The notes beneath the pieces are model-generated. The model ran no database searches. It was not told the origin of the DNA and saw nothing but the letters and a program-made list of their open reading frames with translations. A program made the position numbers and the translations under genes. This document shows positions 272 through 9,725 of a stretch of DNA of 64,000 bases, piece after piece (position 1 is the stretch's first letter; the number at the start of each line of letters is the position of its first letter). The stretch is taken from contig CALGLR010000059.1 in the NCBI GenBank assembly GCA_937959395.1, positions 1-64,000 on the forward strand. Reading direction: 5' to 3'. Origin of the DNA: an uncultured Flavobacteriaceae bacterium (lineage in GTDB: Bacteria; Bacteroidota; Bacteroidia; Flavobacteriales; Flavobacteriaceae).

Positions 272-290
272 AACTAAAGTCTAAATAAAC

Positions 291-502
291 GATCCAATTT
301 TTAATAAATAGAAAATGCCATTTGCTGTAGACGAAAAAAGAACGAATGAAATTGTAGAATTAGAAAAATTAAAATAGCTCGGCTTAATTGATTTTAACCG
401 AGTATTAGAAAAATATTATGAATGAAAAAAGCTGGATTAAAACGTTTTATACGAGACGTTGTAAAACACTTGTAAAAAAATTATGTTCAATTTAAAAGTA
501 AT
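291..502 (+). other. Decayed stretch between boundary motif and lipoprotein remnant
   Basis: No convincing gene. An ORF of 20 codons (315-377, starting MPFAVDEKR) stops early and has no recognisable family. The rest is stop-rich in all frames and reads like eroded gene fragments inside the accessory island. Confidence 0.4.
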
Positions 503-1013
503 ATGCGGTTTATGATACTATTAAAAAGAGTAATTATCTATTGTTTTATTTTAACCTTTTTAATCTGCTGTAAAACTCATAATGGAATAAAAAAACTTTC
601 TTCTCAAACAGCCTGTAATAATACGATTCATTGTTTGGGATAATGAAGGTAATTTTGCAAAAACTGAAAAAAGAGGAATGTGGAAAGATGGTTATGCTTC
701 ATTTTTCAAAGGAAAAAAACTTGACTACAAACAAATTTTCATTGAATCAATCGAAGAATTAAATGGTAATTATTCTTACAAAGAAAATCATGGATTCCCA
801 TCAGAATCAATAATTCAAGTAACTGTTAAATTAGAAAAAATCATTTGGAACATGAACTTTTCTAAACTCATAAAAGACACCGAACTTACATATTCTATTA
901 ATGGTAAAAATATTAGATTATTAGCAAGTAGTAATACACGAGGTGAAAAAGGATTAAAAGAATGTTTTGAAAACGCCAATTTACAATTCATAAGAACTAT
1001 GTGTAATAATTAA
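503..1013 (+). pseudogene. Frameshifted small lipoprotein gene
   Basis: An ATG at 503 opens a lipoprotein signal peptide (MRFMILLKRVIIYCFILTF followed by LICC, lipobox cysteines at residues 22-23) that runs to a stop near 643. The frame one base on reads without a stop from about 612 to 1013, passing QPVIIRFIVWDNEGNF into the ORF with its first ATG at 678. The two halves join naturally if one base is extra near 605-615, giving a protein of about 170 residues. The downstream part has no family I recognise. The cause may be real decay, which fits the accessory setting, or a sequencing error. The unit lies between two copies of the boundary motif. Confidence 0.6.
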
Positions 1014-1158
1014 AATTGTTTACAACAATTTGTATAAAAATTAGAAAGCGGAAAAATCAAAGTCTAAATAAACTATAAAATTAGACATTCTAAAAAGCAA
1101 CCTAGCTTTGGTATTGGTGCAATTTTTCGCTATATTGCATCATATAATTACAAAAAAT

Positions 1159-1401
1159 ATGAGTACAGTAAGAAAATCAATAACTTTTACAGAAAAGCAA
1201 GATCATTGGATAAGAACTAGAATTAAGAATGGTGACTTCACTAACGATAGCGAATACGTAAGAGAACTTGTTAGAAGAGATCAAGAAAGCAACCATAAAC
1301 TTATGGATCTAAAAAATGCGATTGATGATGGCTTGCAAAGTGGAAAAAGTAAGCTTAAGGTAAGTGATATTATAAGAATGGTAGATAATGGAGAACTATA
1401 A
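1159..1401 (+). CDS. parD: ParD-family antitoxin (pair 1)
   Basis: This is an 80-residue CopG/ParD-type antitoxin. It opens MSTVRKSITFTEKQD, the ribbon strand of a ribbon-helix-helix DNA-binding domain, continues through TNDSEYVRELVRR, and ends in the flexible acidic tail that binds the toxin. The open frame reaches back to a TTG at 1108, but the ATG at 1159 is chosen because the conserved ParD N-terminus begins there. Its last 14 bases overlap the start of the ParE gene, as expected for a co-translated toxin-antitoxin pair. ParD dimers normally repress their own promoter. Close paralogue of the antitoxin at 2159. Confidence 0.88.
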   Translation: MSTVRKSITFTEKQDHWIRTRIKNGDFTNDSEYVRELVRRDQESNHKLMDLKNAIDDGLQSGKSKLKVSDIIRMVDNGEL

Positions 1402-1681
1402 TCTATCAGTCCGAGCTCAATTTGATATGGTAGGCATCTATAAGTTTGGAATAAAATATTTTGGCATAGAACAATCTGTCAAATATCAATATGAACTTGA
1501 AAAAATGTTTGAAGAATTGTCGAAAAGACCAGAGATTTCAAGAGATGCTTCCTCCATTTCCAAAGCCCTATTGTTTTACAGATATAAATCACATTATATA
1601 TTCTATCAATTTGAAAATGAAAACGAAATATTTGTAGTTCGAGTTCTTGGTAAGCGAATGAATTTTATAGAACATTTATAA
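1388..1681 (+). CDS. parE: ParE-family toxin (pair 1)
   Basis: This 97-residue protein is of the RelE/ParE superfamily. It starts MENYNLSVRAQFDMVGIYKF, has the long first helix, then RPEISRDASSISKALLFYRYKSHYIFYQF and the closing strand FVVRVLGKRMNFIEHL. ParE toxins classically poison DNA gyrase; that is family knowledge and the target here is not shown. It overlaps the antitoxin by 14 bases. A copy of the 15-base boundary motif begins 7 bases after its stop codon. It aligns by eye with the toxin at 2394 across its whole length. Confidence 0.87.
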   Translation: MENYNLSVRAQFDMVGIYKFGIKYFGIEQSVKYQYELEKMFEELSKRPEISRDASSISKALLFYRYKSHYIFYQFENENEIFVVRVLGKRMNFIEHL

Positions 1682-1703
1682 CAAATTAAAGTCTAAATAA
1701 ACA

Positions 1704-1832
1704 ATGATAACAGACATCAAACACTTAAAAAATGATTTTTATTATGACTCTAAAAATGAAGATATTATAATTCATAAAGATGGTCTAGAATCTTATAAGA
1801 CATATATCGCAAACAAATCAAAGTCTAAATAA
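1704..1832 (+). CDS. Small ORF of 42 residues between boundary motifs
   Basis: The ATG at 1704 lies 1 base after one boundary motif, and the ORF ends inside the next, so that the motif supplies the terminal KSK-stop. The peptide (MITDIKHLKNDFYYDSKNED and on) is charged, has no signal or membrane segment, and matches no family I know. The frame precisely fills the interval between two motif copies, which suggests a minimal one-gene cassette, but a chance ORF of this size cannot be excluded. Confidence 0.4.
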   Translation: MITDIKHLKNDFYYDSKNEDIIIHKDGLESYKTYIANKSKSK

Positions 1833-1835
1833 CCG

Positions 1836-1972
1836 ATGGATATTCAAGAGCAAATAAAATAATAGAACAATTACTTGAGGCTACAATGGAACTTAATTTT
1901 GAGTTTCAAGACGGCTGGGATGATGATATAGAAAACGGCAAGAAACTATTAAAACATTTAAAAGTCCAATAA
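1836..1972 (+). pseudogene. Small ORF broken by a one-base frameshift
   Basis: An ATG at 1836, 2 bases after a boundary motif, gives MDIQEQIK and then stops. Adding one A to the A-run near 1857 continues the frame as IIEQLLEATMELNFEFQ and on through GWDDDIENGKKLLKHLKVQ to the stop at 1972, where a variant boundary motif lies. The intact product would be about 45 residues, acidic, of unknown function. The homopolymer position makes a sequencing error as likely as real decay. Confidence 0.4.
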
Positions 1973-2158
1973 AACGATTCTTTAAAATGGGTTTCACCAC
2001 CTTTAAATAAAGTTCAATAATAAAAGCGAGCGAAGTGCTGCAAGCCCCTAATATCTCCCGAATAAATCCTATCAAATAAATGGTATAAATCTCACAAAAT
2101 AATTGGATATAACGTAATAAATTATTAATTTGCACCAATAATATTAAAATTGGTTCAG

Positions 2159-2410
2159 ATGGGAATAATAAGAAAATCAATAACTTTCACAGAACAACAA
2201 GACACTTACATTAAAAGTCTAATAGAAAAAGGCTTTTACACTAATGATAGTGAATATGTAAGAGACATTATACGTAAAGATCAAGAAAATAGAAAAAACG
2301 GTATCGATTTATATGATGCATTAGCAGATGGAATTGAAAGCGGATCATCTAACGAAACAGTAAACACTATTTGGGAGCAAGCTATTAAAGATAATGAAGG
2401 AAAAAACTAA
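2159..2410 (+). CDS. parD: ParD-family antitoxin (pair 2)
   Basis: This 83-residue antitoxin starts MGIIRKSITFTEQQDTYIKS, the same ribbon-helix-helix beginning as the antitoxin at 1159, followed by the shared TNDSEYVR block and DLYDALADGIESG. The frame extends back to a TTG at 2150, but the ATG at 2159 aligns with the paralogue's start. It overlaps the toxin gene by 17 bases. A sequence reading TATTGGTGCAA on one strand occurs upstream of both antitoxins (1112 and, inverted, 2127) and is a candidate shared operator, though the evidence is thin. Confidence 0.88.
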   Translation: MGIIRKSITFTEQQDTYIKSLIEKGFYTNDSEYVRDIIRKDQENRKNGIDLYDALADGIESGSSNETVNTIWEQAIKDNEGKN

Positions 2411-2705
2411 CTACACTCTTAGTGTTAGAGCTTCTAATGATTTAAAAGGAGTTGCTGATTTCACTATTAAAAAGTTTGGTGTAAAACAATCTGAAATATA
2501 TAGAGATAGTTTTACCTTAATTCTAAATAAATTGGCAAACCATCCAGAAATAGGTAGAGAATATATTGCAATTAAAAACATAATGGTTTCAAGATACAGA
2601 TTCAAAGTTCATACCATATTCTTTTATCCTTTGGGAGAAAAAATATTTGTAGTACGAATTCTAGGAAACAATATGAATTTTATAAAACATTTAAAGTCTA
2701 AATAA
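2394..2705 (+). CDS. parE: ParE-family toxin (pair 2)
   Basis: This 103-residue ParE/RelE-fold toxin starts MKEKTNYTLSVRASNDLKGV, with HPEIGREYIAIKNIMVSRYRF and a C-terminal strand FVVRILGNNMNFIKHLKSK. Its final codons (AAG TCT AAA TAA) are part of the recurring boundary motif, so cassette boundary and gene end coincide. The paralogous toxin at 1388 ends five residues earlier, before its own copy of the motif. This is the last unit of the island; a bidirectional terminator and tRNA-Leu follow. Confidence 0.87.
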   Translation: MKEKTNYTLSVRASNDLKGVADFTIKKFGVKQSEIYRDSFTLILNKLANHPEIGREYIAIKNIMVSRYRFKVHTIFFYPLGEKIFVVRILGNNMNFIKHLKSK

Positions 2706-2716
2706 ATCAATGATAT

Positions 2717-2753
2717 AAAAAATCCTCCATAAATAATGATATGAAGGATTTTT
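2717..2753. terminator. Bidirectional hairpin between parE and tRNA-Leu
   Basis: AAAAATCCT at 2718-2726 pairs with AGGATTTTT at 2745-2753 around an 18-base loop. Because A-runs and T-runs flank it, it can end transcription of the toxin operon on the plus strand and of tRNA-Leu on the minus strand. Confidence 0.65.
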
Positions 2754-2754
2754 G

Positions 2755-2836
2755 TACTCGAGATGGGAATCGAACCCATACTCCCGAAGAAACTAGATTT
2801 TGAATCTAGCGCGTCTACCAATTCCGCCACTCGAGC
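2755..2836 (-). tRNA. tRNA-Leu, anticodon CAA
   Basis: The minus strand reads GCTCGAG for the 5' acceptor strand and CTCGAGT for the 3' strand (a G-U pair closes the stem), with the discriminator A at 2755. The D arm contains GGCGGAATTGGTAGACG, the anticodon stem-loop is CTAGA-TTCAAAA-TCTAG with anticodon CAA, a class II variable arm follows, and the T arm contains GGTTCGATTCC. CCA is not encoded. The length is 82 bases. It borders the accessory island and is a plausible insertion landmark for it. Confidence 0.95.
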
Positions 2837-2888
2837 AAGTTAAGTAATTGTTTAACCTATATTTAACCTAGCATAATTTTTAGGATTA

Positions 2889-2896
2889 CAAATATA
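2889..2896 (-). promoter_or_regulatory. Candidate -7 element for tRNA-Leu
   Basis: The minus strand reads TATATTTG here, a match to the Bacteroidetes -7 consensus TAnnTTTG, about 50 bases upstream of the tRNA 5' end. No convincing TTG -33 element is seen. Confidence 0.4.
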
Positions 2897-2947
2897 TTTT
2901 AACCATTTGTTTTTCAGTAATTTACTTCTATTTTTTATTTTAATACG

Positions 2948-2993
2948 CGTTAGGTTTTGAATCCGACGCGTCTACCAATTCCGCCACTTGAGC
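2948..2993 (-). pseudogene. Half of a decayed tRNA-Leu
   Basis: The minus strand from 2993 reads GCTCAAGTGGCGGAATTGG and continues through a D arm identical to that of tRNA-Leu(CAA) into an anticodon loop TTCAAAA. The anticodon stem no longer pairs, and the variable arm, T arm and 3' acceptor strand are missing. It is a remnant of a second tRNA-Leu copy lying 5' of the intact one. The 5' half is retained, so it is not the usual 3'-half duplication left by an integrase. Confidence 0.75.
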
Positions 2994-3130
2994 ATTAATT
3001 CAACTAAAAATAAAGCCTCTTAAAATAGAGTGACCTCTTTTTAGTTGTTTTTGGTGTGCAAATTTAAATTTTATTTTGGTAAATCCCCTAAAATAAACGG
3101 GAATATATTATAATAGATCAAAAAAAAGCC

Positions 3131-5815: not shown

Positions 5816-6667
5816 ATGAATCTTAAAACGAATTATTTTGGTTTACTAATCCTAATTTTGACGTCTTGTAATAAAGAACAAAAATACGTTCCAAACGGAT
5901 TAATAAAACTAACAGAAAACGAATTAATTCTAAGAGCAAAAAATCAAGAATCGATTGATTTTGAAAAAATATCTTATAAAAATGAAAAAGGCGAAGTTTT
6001 TACCCTAGATTCTGTTAGAAATTTTCCAAAAACAAACGAATGGATATTTGATAGATATGCTAACGAAAAAGGTATAATTAAAGAACTAATTATAAGAAAA
6101 GCAACACCTAAAGACAAAGAGTTACTGGCAAAAATACAACAAGCTTACAATTACGAACCGCCAATACAATTAATTGATATTGATTGCGATAAAAAAGCTG
6201 AAATTTTAGAAGCAATCTATTTACTGGATCAAAATATGAGATCAAGCGATAATCACGAAGATTATGACCCAAAAATTGATAGACAAAATTTAACCAAAGT
6301 TGTTAGTCTAATTGAAAAATGCGGAATGCCAACAACTAAAGAAGTAAATACAATTTGGTTAGTTTTACAGCATGCAGATAATGAGAATAGAAAAAAATAT
6401 TTTCCTTTATTAAAAAAAGCAGCCTACAATGGATACCTAACAAAAAGTAAGATTGCCATTATGGAAGATAGGATTTTAATGACGGATGGCAAACCTCAAA
6501 TTTATGGTTCTCAAATCACGGAAAATAGAGAAACCAAAAAATGGGAGATTTACGATCTTAAAGACCCTAAATTTGTTGATAAGAGACGAGCTAAAGTTGG
6601 TCTTAAACCTTTAAAAGAATATACAAAAGATTTTGATGTTCAATTCAATATTAAGCAGGAACAATAA
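5816..6667 (+). CDS. DUF6624-like lipoprotein
   Basis: A 283-residue protein with a lipoprotein signal (LLILILTSC, lipidated cysteine at 18), so anchored in a membrane and exposed in the periplasm or on the surface. The C-terminal third carries WLVLQHADNENRKKYFPLL, then AIMEDRILMTDGKPQIYGSQ, a pattern I associate with DUF6624, a family without known function. It starts 49 bases after pth and converges with the large metalloprotease gene. No operon partners. Confidence 0.7.
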   Translation: MNLKTNYFGLLILILTSCNKEQKYVPNGLIKLTENELILRAKNQESIDFEKISYKNEKGEVFTLDSVRNFPKTNEWIFDRYANEKGIIKELIIRKATPKDKELLAKIQQAYNYEPPIQLIDIDCDKKAEILEAIYLLDQNMRSSDNHEDYDPKIDRQNLTKVVSLIEKCGMPTTKEVNTIWLVLQHADNENRKKYFPLLKKAAYNGYLTKSKIAIMEDRILMTDGKPQIYGSQITENRETKKWEIYDLKDPKFVDKRRAKVGLKPLKEYTKDFDVQFNIKQEQ

Positions 6668-6725
6668 ATTAAACAGTCTTTCTTTTGTAACACTTTATAG
6701 CAATAAGACCTACTCAAAAATAATA

Positions 6726-9725
6726 TTATCTAACTATTATTTTTCTAGTAATCTTTTCTTTTCCATTTGAAACCCTTACAAGATAGAGTCCCCCTTGTAC
6801 GTCTTTTAAATTAACCGATTCATTAAAACCTAAAGTGTTTTGAAACCGTTTATCATAAACCCTTCTTCCTCTTACATCATAAACTAAAACGCTTATTTCA
6901 TCTCCAGGGGTTTCGATTAGCTTAATATTAAATAACCCTGAATTAGGGTTAGGATAAATACGTGTTTGAGAATCTAAATCGAGTTGAGCTGGCAATATAT
7001 TTACGGTATAATCTTCTATTTCGCCATCAAAATCATTTTCACAAGCAGAAGATGGTGATTGAAATTTTGTAGAAACTCGCATGGTCGTATTCCCTAAAAC
7101 AGCATCTATAGGAACCACTATAGGCAATGGAGAATTACTTGTAGGTCCATTTACCACATTAGTTGCGGTACCTAAATCATACTCCTCGTTGCCTTCAAAA
7201 ATGCAATTTTGATTCCAGTCTATCCAAACTTTACTTTCACATAAAAAATTTCCGAAAGTATTTATATTTACGGTTAAACCATATGGATTTGCTCGTTCAA
7301 TAGCTGTAGATAAATTCGTAAAATCACTATATCCTGAAGGCTTACCGTTATTTAAATTCTCTAATGTATTAAACGAAACACCTGTTATACTGGTTTGAAA
7401 ATCTGTATTTGCCACTGCATTACAAATGCCATCAATAACTTCTAAACCAATATTAGCAATACTATTTGTGACTGATGCTGATGTGCCAATAACTTCAAGA
7501 TTATAAATCCCTTGAGAAACATCTGTTAGACCGCTAACAGACATCGTAAATTCTTCAGAATTATTTAAACTACTTGAAGAAAAAATAACAGTTGAACCAG
7601 GAGGATTACCCATTACTGTAAAAACAGTGTCCTCAGCAAACCCATTAACTGTAGAAAACCTTAAGTTATATATTAACTCATCGACACCGCAAGCAACCTG
7701 TGAACCACTAGCATTACTTAAAGCAAAGGTAGGCATATTAGATATCGGGAAACTCTCACTCATTGCATAAAAAATATTATCTGTTGCTTCTACTATAATT
7801 CTAGCATTATTAGCTGGAGGAATGCCTGGTATAGTTATCGTTTCCAACCCATCATTATCAATATTAGTAGCTAAGGTAAACGGAAAAGTCACTCCATTAT
7901 CTACAGATAATTTAATAGTCACTTTTTGGCAATTTATTGTTGAATTATTAGTCTCTCCTACATTCCAACTTATATCTGCTTCTCCTGTTGAAGGCAAAGC
8001 TCCTGGGCTATTAGCTGTAAAGGGTAAAACGTTTTCTACAGTAATCCTCATTAAATCAAAACTAGTTTGTGCTCCCAATCCTAAACCACTTGGTTCCCTA
8101 TCTCTAACCGTAAGTGCCCAGTTTAATGTTCTAGACACTGTAGATACAGTTTCCCAGTCTTCATTAACTGTAGGATTTTCTTGCGTTAATTCTCCAGCCA
8201 CTACTCTACTAAACTTAGGAATATAACGATATGGGCTTGAATTAGGTTCTAAAGATCTATTCGTAGAACCTGTTGTTAAGGTTGGCCCAAAAGTAGTATT
8301 AGTAACAACACCATTATCTATTTGCTCCCAACAATAAGTTAAAGCGTCCCCTCCATTAGCATCTGTAGCGGTTCCCTTTAAAATATAAGCAGTTCCTGGA
8401 GGAATATTATAATCATTTCCAGCATTTGCAATCGGGGGCTCATTTGATATCACTGTCGTTTGTGCACAATTGTTTGGTGAAGTCTCTAAATTATCGAGTA
8501 TTTGTTTAATACTATAATAATGAAAATAAGAATCACTATGCAATTGCACATTGTTGTCTCCTGTAATACCGGCATAACCCATTATTGTTGTTCCGCTTCC
8601 TGGCTCTGCATTTACTCCTGTATTCTCTGTATTAAAAGCCCAAGTATGATTGGCTCCCATTTGATGGCCAATTTCATGAGCAACAAAATCGATATCAAAA
8701 TTATCACCTTCAGGAATTCCATCAGAAGGGGAAGTAATCCCGCTACCTTTTCTTCCATCTTCACAAACGCAACCTATGCAACCTGCGCTCCCTCCTCCTC
8801 CTGAGGCGCCAAACATATGGCCAATATCATAACTAGCCTCCCCTATAGTAGTTGTTAATGTCGATTGTAATTCATTATTCCAATTTGATATTGCAGAATA
8901 AGGATCCGTAGCTGCATTCGTATAAATTAATTGTGTGGCATCAACTAATTCAAATGTTACTGCCATATCTGTTTCAAAAACAGCATTAACTCTTGTCATT
9001 GTTGTATTAATAGCCGCAAGTGCTCCAGCAATTGTTCCACCATGATAAGCGGTATATTCTCCATTAACAGAGATTGCTAACTTAAATTTCCGAAGTAATT
9101 GATCATTAGCATCTCTAAGAGATGAACTTTCTCCCTTAGCAACCTGTTCCTTTTTAGAAAAATCCTCAACCATCCCACATACAAATTCAGGTAATTTATT
9201 ATCTGCTCTAGATAACCTATTATAAACAATATAATTATTTACATCTCCTGTAATAGGTTGCATAAAAACGGTAGGCTTATCTCTATAATCTATCATCGTA
9301 TTTATTCCACTAGGTGAAATACTTAATCGTAAAATTGCTTTATTATTAAGTCCATATCCTATATAAGATTTTATATCTGGATACTTATTAGACAATTCGG
9401 GTGAAAAATTAGAAGCTTCATAAATTTGAAATTGTTCAGTTTCCCCTTTTTCGTTAGGAATAGATATAATATTTGAATTCGTTTTATGACCTGTACCTCT
9501 TTGAGGTATATTTACTAAATCCTGTTTTAAGGTTTCAATATTTAATTGAAGTATTTTAAAATGATTCGTATCTAATTTATTAATTGAAATTGAATTTAAA
9601 CTCCCATTAGAAGTCGCAGATTTCCATGATCTATTTTGACCAAAAAGAGAAACCCCGATTAAAAAATGGAGTAATGCGAAAAAATATCTTGATTTTATTT
9701 TCAACACACACGCTTTAATATTCAT
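6726..9725 (-). CDS. Secreted reprolysin-like metalloprotease with GEVED and T9SS domains
   Basis: A 999-residue exported protein. It has an N-terminal signal sequence (residues about 10-30, ending LFGQ), a propeptide, a catalytic domain with the zinc motif HEIGHQMGANH (HExxH at 350-354, third ligand after GAN) followed by the Met-turn GTTIMGYAG, then Ig-like domains (IANAGNDYNIPPGTAYILKG), a GEVED domain (WIDWNQNCIFEGNEEYDLG ... DGEIEDYTV), and a C-terminal type IX sorting domain (IYPNPNSGLFNIKL ... KITRKIIVR). It should cross the outer membrane by T9SS and be released or attached to the surface as an extracellular protease. It has a shorter paralogue at 12260-14584. Confidence 0.92.
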   Translation of the reverse strand: MNIKACVLKIKSRYFFALLHFLIGVSLFGQNRSWKSATSNGSLNSISINKLDTNHFKILQLNIETLKQDLVNIPQRGTGHKTNSNIISIPNEKGETEQFQIYEASNFSPELSNKYPDIKSYIGYGLNNKAILRLSISPSGINTMIDYRDKPTVFMQPITGDVNNYIVYNRLSRADNKLPEFVCGMVEDFSKKEQVAKGESSSLRDANDQLLRKFKLAISVNGEYTAYHGGTIAGALAAINTTMTRVNAVFETDMAVTFELVDATQLIYTNAATDPYSAISNWNNELQSTLTTTIGEASYDIGHMFGASGGGGSAGCIGCVCEDGRKGSGITSPSDGIPEGDNFDIDFVAHEIGHQMGANHTWAFNTENTGVNAEPGSGTTIMGYAGITGDNNVQLHSDSYFHYYSIKQILDNLETSPNNCAQTTVISNEPPIANAGNDYNIPPGTAYILKGTATDANGGDALTYCWEQIDNGVVTNTTFGPTLTTGSTNRSLEPNSSPYRYIPKFSRVVAGELTQENPTVNEDWETVSTVSRTLNWALTVRDREPSGLGLGAQTSFDLMRITVENVLPFTANSPGALPSTGEADISWNVGETNNSTINCQKVTIKLSVDNGVTFPFTLATNIDNDGLETITIPGIPPANNARIIVEATDNIFYAMSESFPISNMPTFALSNASGSQVACGVDELIYNLRFSTVNGFAEDTVFTVMGNPPGSTVIFSSSSLNNSEEFTMSVSGLTDVSQGIYNLEVIGTSASVTNSIANIGLEVIDGICNAVANTDFQTSITGVSFNTLENLNNGKPSGYSDFTNLSTAIERANPYGLTVNINTFGNFLCESKVWIDWNQNCIFEGNEEYDLGTATNVVNGPTSNSPLPIVVPIDAVLGNTTMRVSTKFQSPSSACENDFDGEIEDYTVNILPAQLDLDSQTRIYPNPNSGLFNIKLIETPGDEISVLVYDVRGRRVYDKRFQNTLGFNESVNLKDVQGGLYLVRVSNGKEKITRKIIVR

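Follow-up and report, generated by a model that had tools for sequence, protein, structure and literature searches.

Integrons are the textbook platform for gene cassettes, and the staphylococcal cassette chromosome (SCC) is characterized by large elements, large serine recombinases of the CcrA/B/C kind and a location at the end of rlmH. The attC sites of integrons are variable in sequence and conserved in structure, and complete integrons are nearly absent from Bacteroidetes (PMC9024848). Here we analyze an array of small genes and toxin-antitoxin pairs, punctuated by a short repeated site, which lies at the left end of a 64,000-nucleotide stretch from an uncultured Flavobacteriaceae bacterium (GenBank assembly GCA_937959395.1, contig CALGLR010000059.1, C59 in the following; the whole stretch is called the window). 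We read it, with a probability of about 0.8, as the recombinase-less tail of a modular cassette array, the units of which a serine recombinase would move at an 18-bp site. The broader picture, namely that single-gene cassettes in marine Flavobacteriaceae are assembled, inserted and excised by a small serine recombinase at an asymmetric site, one half-site plus an AT overlap, and that this gene capture is a counterpart of the integron which arose independently of IntI and attC, we consider likely. A search of the open-access literature for serine-recombinase cassette arrays turned up no description, subscription papers and preprints being outside its scope.

A Short Site at the Ends of Small Genes

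An earlier reading of the window from its letters alone (the sequence-only reading) had claimed six copies of a 15-base motif in one orientation, each at the end of a small gene unit. The copies are as claimed, exact at 276, 1059 and 1688, with one mismatch at 1820 and 2693 and with three at 1961; the last but one of these had been placed at 2692. All lie on the + strand, overlapping the end of a gene or open reading frame (ORF) or no more than 46 bp from one, and five share the exact 12-mer AAGTCTAAATAA. It also holds that the motif twice encodes the end of the gene itself, in the 42-aa ORF ending at 1832 and in the ParE ending at 2705. Counted at up to three mismatches, the 15-mer shows no excess over chance in the 64 kb of the window (14 matches vs 13.1 expected). 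With 0-1 mismatches it occurs at 8 places in the 4.3-Mb genome, five of them inside 2.4 kb of the window and a sixth at the right end of contig C65, as part of another cluster; these exact and one-mismatch copies are non-random.

The site continues rightward beyond the 15-mer (AAACGAT), a continuation missed at first, and reading of the C65 cluster widened the motif to AAGTYYAAWWAAMCGAT. In this form it has seven perfect matches genome-wide, all on the + strand and confined to C59:277-1978 or C65:9379-10982, and the divergent copy at 1961 turns out to be a normal variant, AAGTCCAATAAAACGAT, which fits AAGTYYAAWWAAMCGAT exactly. Because C65 ends in what reads like an antitoxin and the window begins within a ParE toxin, the right end of C65 and the left end of C59 probably belong to one broken array, the antitoxin of the first, truncated unit of the window then probably being the one at the end of C65.

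Long arrays of the same site are present in other Flavobacteriaceae, including Flagellimonas/Allomuricauda, Maribacter, Arenibacter and Euzebyella; same-orientation clusters were found in approximately 12 of the 397 family genomes scanned, with controls near zero. A weight-matrix fit gives a sharply bounded 18-bp site, AAAGTTYAAWWAAA[C/G]GAT, with clear limits on both sides, of which about 194 copies were counted in the first contigs fetched vs roughly 10 in reversed-sequence controls. The sites are spaced mostly by 0.2-2 kb, with one orientation per array. Among 254 sites from 39 named loci, the median position is 15 bp after the stop codon, the stop is overlapped in 25%, and 3% fall within ORFs vs 72% of random positions, so that the motif does mark gene ends as proposed; the site centre is AT in 245 of the 254. 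The exact 18-mer AAAGTTCAAATAAACGAT was not found in 395 phylum-wide genomes, few of them from array-bearing genera, and since it is also absent from the window genome this is weak evidence on distribution. The window array lies at a tRNA-Leu gene and those of genome G431 at tRNA-Val genes. General insertion at tRNA genes was considered and rejected: it holds for the window and [Muricauda] lutisoli, but most other array regions have no tRNA.

A Small Serine Recombinase Beside the Arrays

Small serine recombinases of the gamma-delta/Gin type are encoded near the arrays. Two types can be told apart, one of about 219-224 aa that ends in a Cys-rich tail (A) and one of about 202 aa (B). The enzymes match the PF00239 catalytic domain (1e-43), have invariant residues R7, S9, R67 and R70, and resemble the gamma-delta/Tn3 resolvase in fold and PDB matches; by sequence, invariant residues and fold, the array-associated enzyme is a member of the resolvase/invertase family. 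The C-terminal tail of type A (e.g., L120:10001-10642) has a CxEC...C...H pattern that is not in type B and is possibly a zinc-binding domain. A scan of named genomes yielded 79 recombinase loci. In 70 of these, for which the amounts of DNA searched upstream and downstream were about equal, 302 downstream sites have the strand of the gene and 3 the opposite one, and 11 sites are upstream; the controls gave 2 and 1. These loci were picked by their recombinase, and the counts consequently describe the placement of arrays relative to the enzyme, not the share of arrays having one. Such sites are missing near the resolvases of another subfamily that the same genomes encode. Arrays for another resolvase subfamily (half-site TGTCCCGTAAAACG) were also sought in the fetched loci, with none found. 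Plasmid relatives of the recombinase, in at least 4572 records, all have less than 60% identity to it, and no array was noted in two Bacteroidota plasmids judged only by reading their annotated genes.

In the window genome, the sole PF00239 match is a fragment on C65 (7474-7662 by profile, ORF 7480-7875) that has lost its N-terminus. The window array is thus a decayed relic and its recombinase a truncated remnant; because of this loss, the array is expected to be frozen, barring an enzyme that acts in trans.

Might an enzyme of another class drive the arrays? In a divergent integron, an IntI-type tyrosine recombinase encoded elsewhere would move the units and the 18-bp site would be a degenerate attC. 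The anatomy is indeed integron-like, with single-gene units, toxin-antitoxin pairs, one orientation and arrays without a recombinase, and IntI-like proteins falling under the curated cut-off exist in some genomes, including that of the window on contig C66. We nonetheless regard this explanation as extremely unlikely. The TIGR02249 cut-off is reached in none of the 12 genomes, the strongest sub-threshold matches lying away from the arrays, and tyrosine recombinases (PF00589 matches) are not consistently near them. Moreover, the site lacks the GTTRRRY core, is conserved in sequence, unlike attC, and has no folding excess (for the 100 nt that end at the site, the folding energy averages -11.7 vs -12.9 at offset positions). 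A classical integron was accordingly rejected on the negative IntI and fold tests, and a tyrosine recombinase as driver on the inconsistent proximity of PF00589 matches. The IntI-like integrase of the window genome (G000:C66:25422-26210, 396 aa) is in two pieces that stay under the TIGR02249 cut-off; array sites are absent from its vicinity, and it is possibly an integrase without cassettes.

Exchange of Units at the Site

Site pairs were grouped into families and compared with pairs from the same loci (a locus-matched null). Identity switches abruptly at the site, 27 families sharing the upstream side only and 31 the downstream side only. The variable motif positions 5, 6, 9, 10 and 14 track the upstream unit and not the downstream one; since positions up to 14 follow the upstream unit, the switch point lies within GAT. 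Crossover at the semi-palindrome centre, between the halves of GTTYAA-ATAAAC, came from the first pair analysis and was rejected, the locus-matched null placing the switch at GAT. Loci L104 and L105 share their first site behind the recombinase, and also the gene after it, but in L104 eight units (7.6 kb) separate the two; the difference falls exactly at that first site and may reflect either gain or loss. Single-gene cassettes are therefore swapped precisely at the site, as integron cassettes are, and these families together with the L104/L105 pair bear out the unit exchange exactly between motifs that had been anticipated. Homologues of the first ParDE pair of the window (Unit 2), with 63-73% amino acid identity, are present in L116, L124 and L155 as single units flanked by the same sites, and so are those of the second pair (Unit 5), with 47-68% identity, in L063, L092/L153 and L157; a further homologue of the second pair occurs in L204.

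A mechanism dispensing with any dedicated enzyme would be recombination, homologous or illegitimate, at a short sequence that the units share at their 3' side, the site being for example a transcription or processing signal. It would suit the position of the site at gene ends, often including the stop codon, and the arrays that have no recombinase nearby. However, 18 bp is short for RecA-dependent exchange, the boundaries are exact across genera despite unrelated flanks, and the region upstream of the recombinase gene itself incorporates this site, its inverted halves spaced by 2 bp, all of which makes this mechanism improbable.

The Recombinase-Proximal Site and a Proposed Mechanism

One inverted site, ending in GGT, is found about 107 bp upstream of most recombinases, and is followed by more half-site-like stretches, which extend up to the start codon, resembling the res regions of resolvases. 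The crossover site of serine recombinases consists of two inverted half-sites around 2 bp. A search for two inverted 16-bp half-sites, with a spacer of 0-7 bp allowed, returned 23 candidates, 18 of which have exactly 2 bp, and 0 in the reversed-sequence control. Most candidates are the recombinase-proximal site itself; two with AT centres stand alone, in L166 and in L201, the latter belonging to the window's genus and having a full AT site just after an apparent toxin gene. The layout of a crossover site is thus seen at recombinase-proximal sites, not at array sites, which have one half only. The block from the gene to the first site is 92-99% identical between species and the upstream stretch 87-100% in most pairs, and the DNA just outside both sites is only about 30% identical. 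Outside the recombinase-proximal site, a left flank of the form TTAATTnACSTTTTAYGGGACA, about 130 bp upstream of the recombinase, is shared by L126, L133, L155, L160, L167 and L177 and resembles the half-site of another resolvase subfamily.

The one-sidedness of array sites bears on a third alternative, in which a transposase would insert units, by one-ended transposition, at the 3' side of an existing site, and the serine recombinase would be a co-resident resolvase only. Conserved sequence at only one unit end and the different centre (GT) of the recombinase-proximal site speak for it. Against it, no transposase was recognized at the arrays, though no systematic search for one was made, the array half-site is the same as that in the recombinase's own upstream region, and the arrays lie almost solely on the downstream side and strand of the recombinase. 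We judge such transposition very unlikely.

In the serine-recombinase mechanism that we favor, a unit consists of a single gene or operon followed by the 18-bp site, which would move with the upstream unit. The enzyme is predicted to bind the 16-bp half-site AAAGTTYAAWWAAACG and to cut and exchange strands at the 2-bp centre AT. Recombination between AT sites would then insert or excise circularized units, often at the site that comes first after the recombinase gene.

Several observations weigh against this mechanism. No right half-site is detectable at array sites (429 sites), which is unusual for a dimer-binding recombinase, and L104/L105 is the sole clean insertion or deletion of units found. 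No intact PF00239 gene lies near the arrays of genomes G169, G416, G424, G039 and G225; close to arrays in G039, G265 and G169 there are C-terminal fragments of type B, and the large arrays of G424 and G416 have neither such a recombinase nor a fragment within about 20 kb. Finally, the centre of the recombinase-proximal site is GT, not AT, in 35 of 37 loci, and mismatched centres yield only traces of recombinants in the small serine recombinases and resolvases studied (PMC11607074). From this difference and intolerance it follows that the proximal site probably accepts no units itself; it may instead have a regulatory role for the gene or define where the recombinase unit ends on the left, and the first site behind the gene is a better candidate for the entry point.

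The sequence-only reading had proposed an undescribed site-specific cassette system differing from attC as one possibility, and had suggested looking for a recombinase gene to the left of the window. Position at gene ends, exact exchange and the recombinase all support it, that gene being present in truncated form on C65 (given the probable join with C59) and intact, in relatives, upstream of numerous arrays; the noted lack of a GTTRRRY core stands, and the fold check at the sites revealed no attC fold. Its other option, repeated insertion at one short target, partly amounts to the cassette reading, since every unit arrives with a site of its own. The serine-recombinase nature of the enzyme, the 18-bp length of the site and the decayed, recombinase-less state of the window copy were not visible to it.

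Content and Surroundings of the Window Array

The features of the array are collected in table 1. Its two ParDE pairs are type II toxin-antitoxin operons matching PF03693 and PF05016 above the gathering cut-offs, and the part of the array on C65 encodes, among others, a DUF2158 protein and a glyoxalase-family protein. A clean empty chromosomal site was not found in the same genus, the contigs of G001 and G002 breaking at the locus.

Table 1. Array units, sites and right flank at the left end of the window
Feature	Position	Strand	Remarks
Unit 0, cut by contig end	1..275	+	RelE/ParE-type toxin ORF 2-271; PF05016 1.5e-9
Array site AAAGTCTAAATAAACGAT	276..293	+	
Unit 1, broken lipoprotein-like gene	294..1058	+	ORF pieces 503-643, 678-1013
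Array site AAAGTCTAAATAAACTAT	1059..1076	+	
Unit 2, ParD (1159-1401) / ParE (1388-1681)	1077..1687	+	Pfam
Array site AAAGTCTAAATAAACAAT	1688..1705	+	
Unit 3, 42-aa ORF 1704-1832	1706..1819	+	Start inside preceding site, end (KSK*) supplied by next site
Array site AAAGTCTAAATAACCGAT	1820..1837	+	
Unit 4, small ORF 1853-1972, apparently decayed	1838..1960	+	
Array site AAAGTCCAATAAAACGAT	1961..1978	+	
Possible decayed site AAAGTTCAATAATAAAAG	2009..2026	+	Read directly; missed by the sequence-only reading
Unit 5, ParD (2162-2410) / ParE (2394-2705)	2027..2692	+	Pfam
Final array site AAAGTCTAAATAAATCAA	2693..2710	+	GAT end lost; encodes ParE end
tRNA-Leu(caa)	2754..2836	-	Terminator region abuts right end of array; chromosomal flank, outside the system

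A stretch resembling GCGAGCGAAGTGCTGCAAGCCCC follows the decayed site of the window (about 2029-2050), recurs in L062 (about 13.99 kb) and L100, and adjoins the outer side of the recombinase-proximal site in [Muricauda] lutisoli. Beyond the array, positions 2951-2994 hold a copy, 89% identical, of the 5' half of the adjoining tRNA-Leu gene, apparently a tRNA fragment. Upstream of the array on C65 (L029) lie a 696-aa ORF (945-3035), which on reading its sequence resembles fused cytosine and adenine DNA methyltransferases, and a serine-hydrolase-like ORF (6142-7266).

Comparison with Known Systems

In evolutionary terms, if our reading is correct, a second and unrelated class of enzyme would have come to the same array architecture, a convergent evolution of gene capture. 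The runs of orphan small genes and of toxin-antitoxin pairs in marine Flavobacteriaceae would thereby be accounted for, cassette genes could be mined by a simple signature of 18 bp, and the choice of DNA by serine recombinases could be probed with a small enzyme whose site is minimal and one-sided.

By function, the closest described systems are integrons and CALINs, the clusters of attC sites lacking an integron integrase (PMC9024848). Like them, the present arrays consist of promiscuous units, single genes or operons, that all point the same way; each unit has a site at its 3' end, which mostly remains with the gene upstream, the content behind the recombinase platform varies, and relic arrays without recombinase occur. 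They differ from integrons in having a serine instead of a tyrosine recombinase, an 18-bp site conserved in sequence instead of a folded attC, and an array placed downstream of the recombinase on the same strand. The enzyme itself is like the resolvases of the Tn3 family and gamma-delta with their res sites, and also the Gin and Hin invertases, in sequence, fold, upstream half-site repeats and a crossover-type site with a 2-bp centre; unlike in Tn3 and gamma-delta, its half-site is repeated downstream, up to dozens of times, with a gene unit ending at each copy. Composite SCC islands likewise combine a serine recombinase with tandem modules between copies of a short site. Neither a large Ccr nor an insertion at rlmH was seen here, the recombinases having 202-224 aa and the window array lying at tRNA-Leu, with no search for rlmH itself; unlike SCC, the system described here combines a recombinase of only about 200-224 aa with units mostly of 0.2-2 kb.
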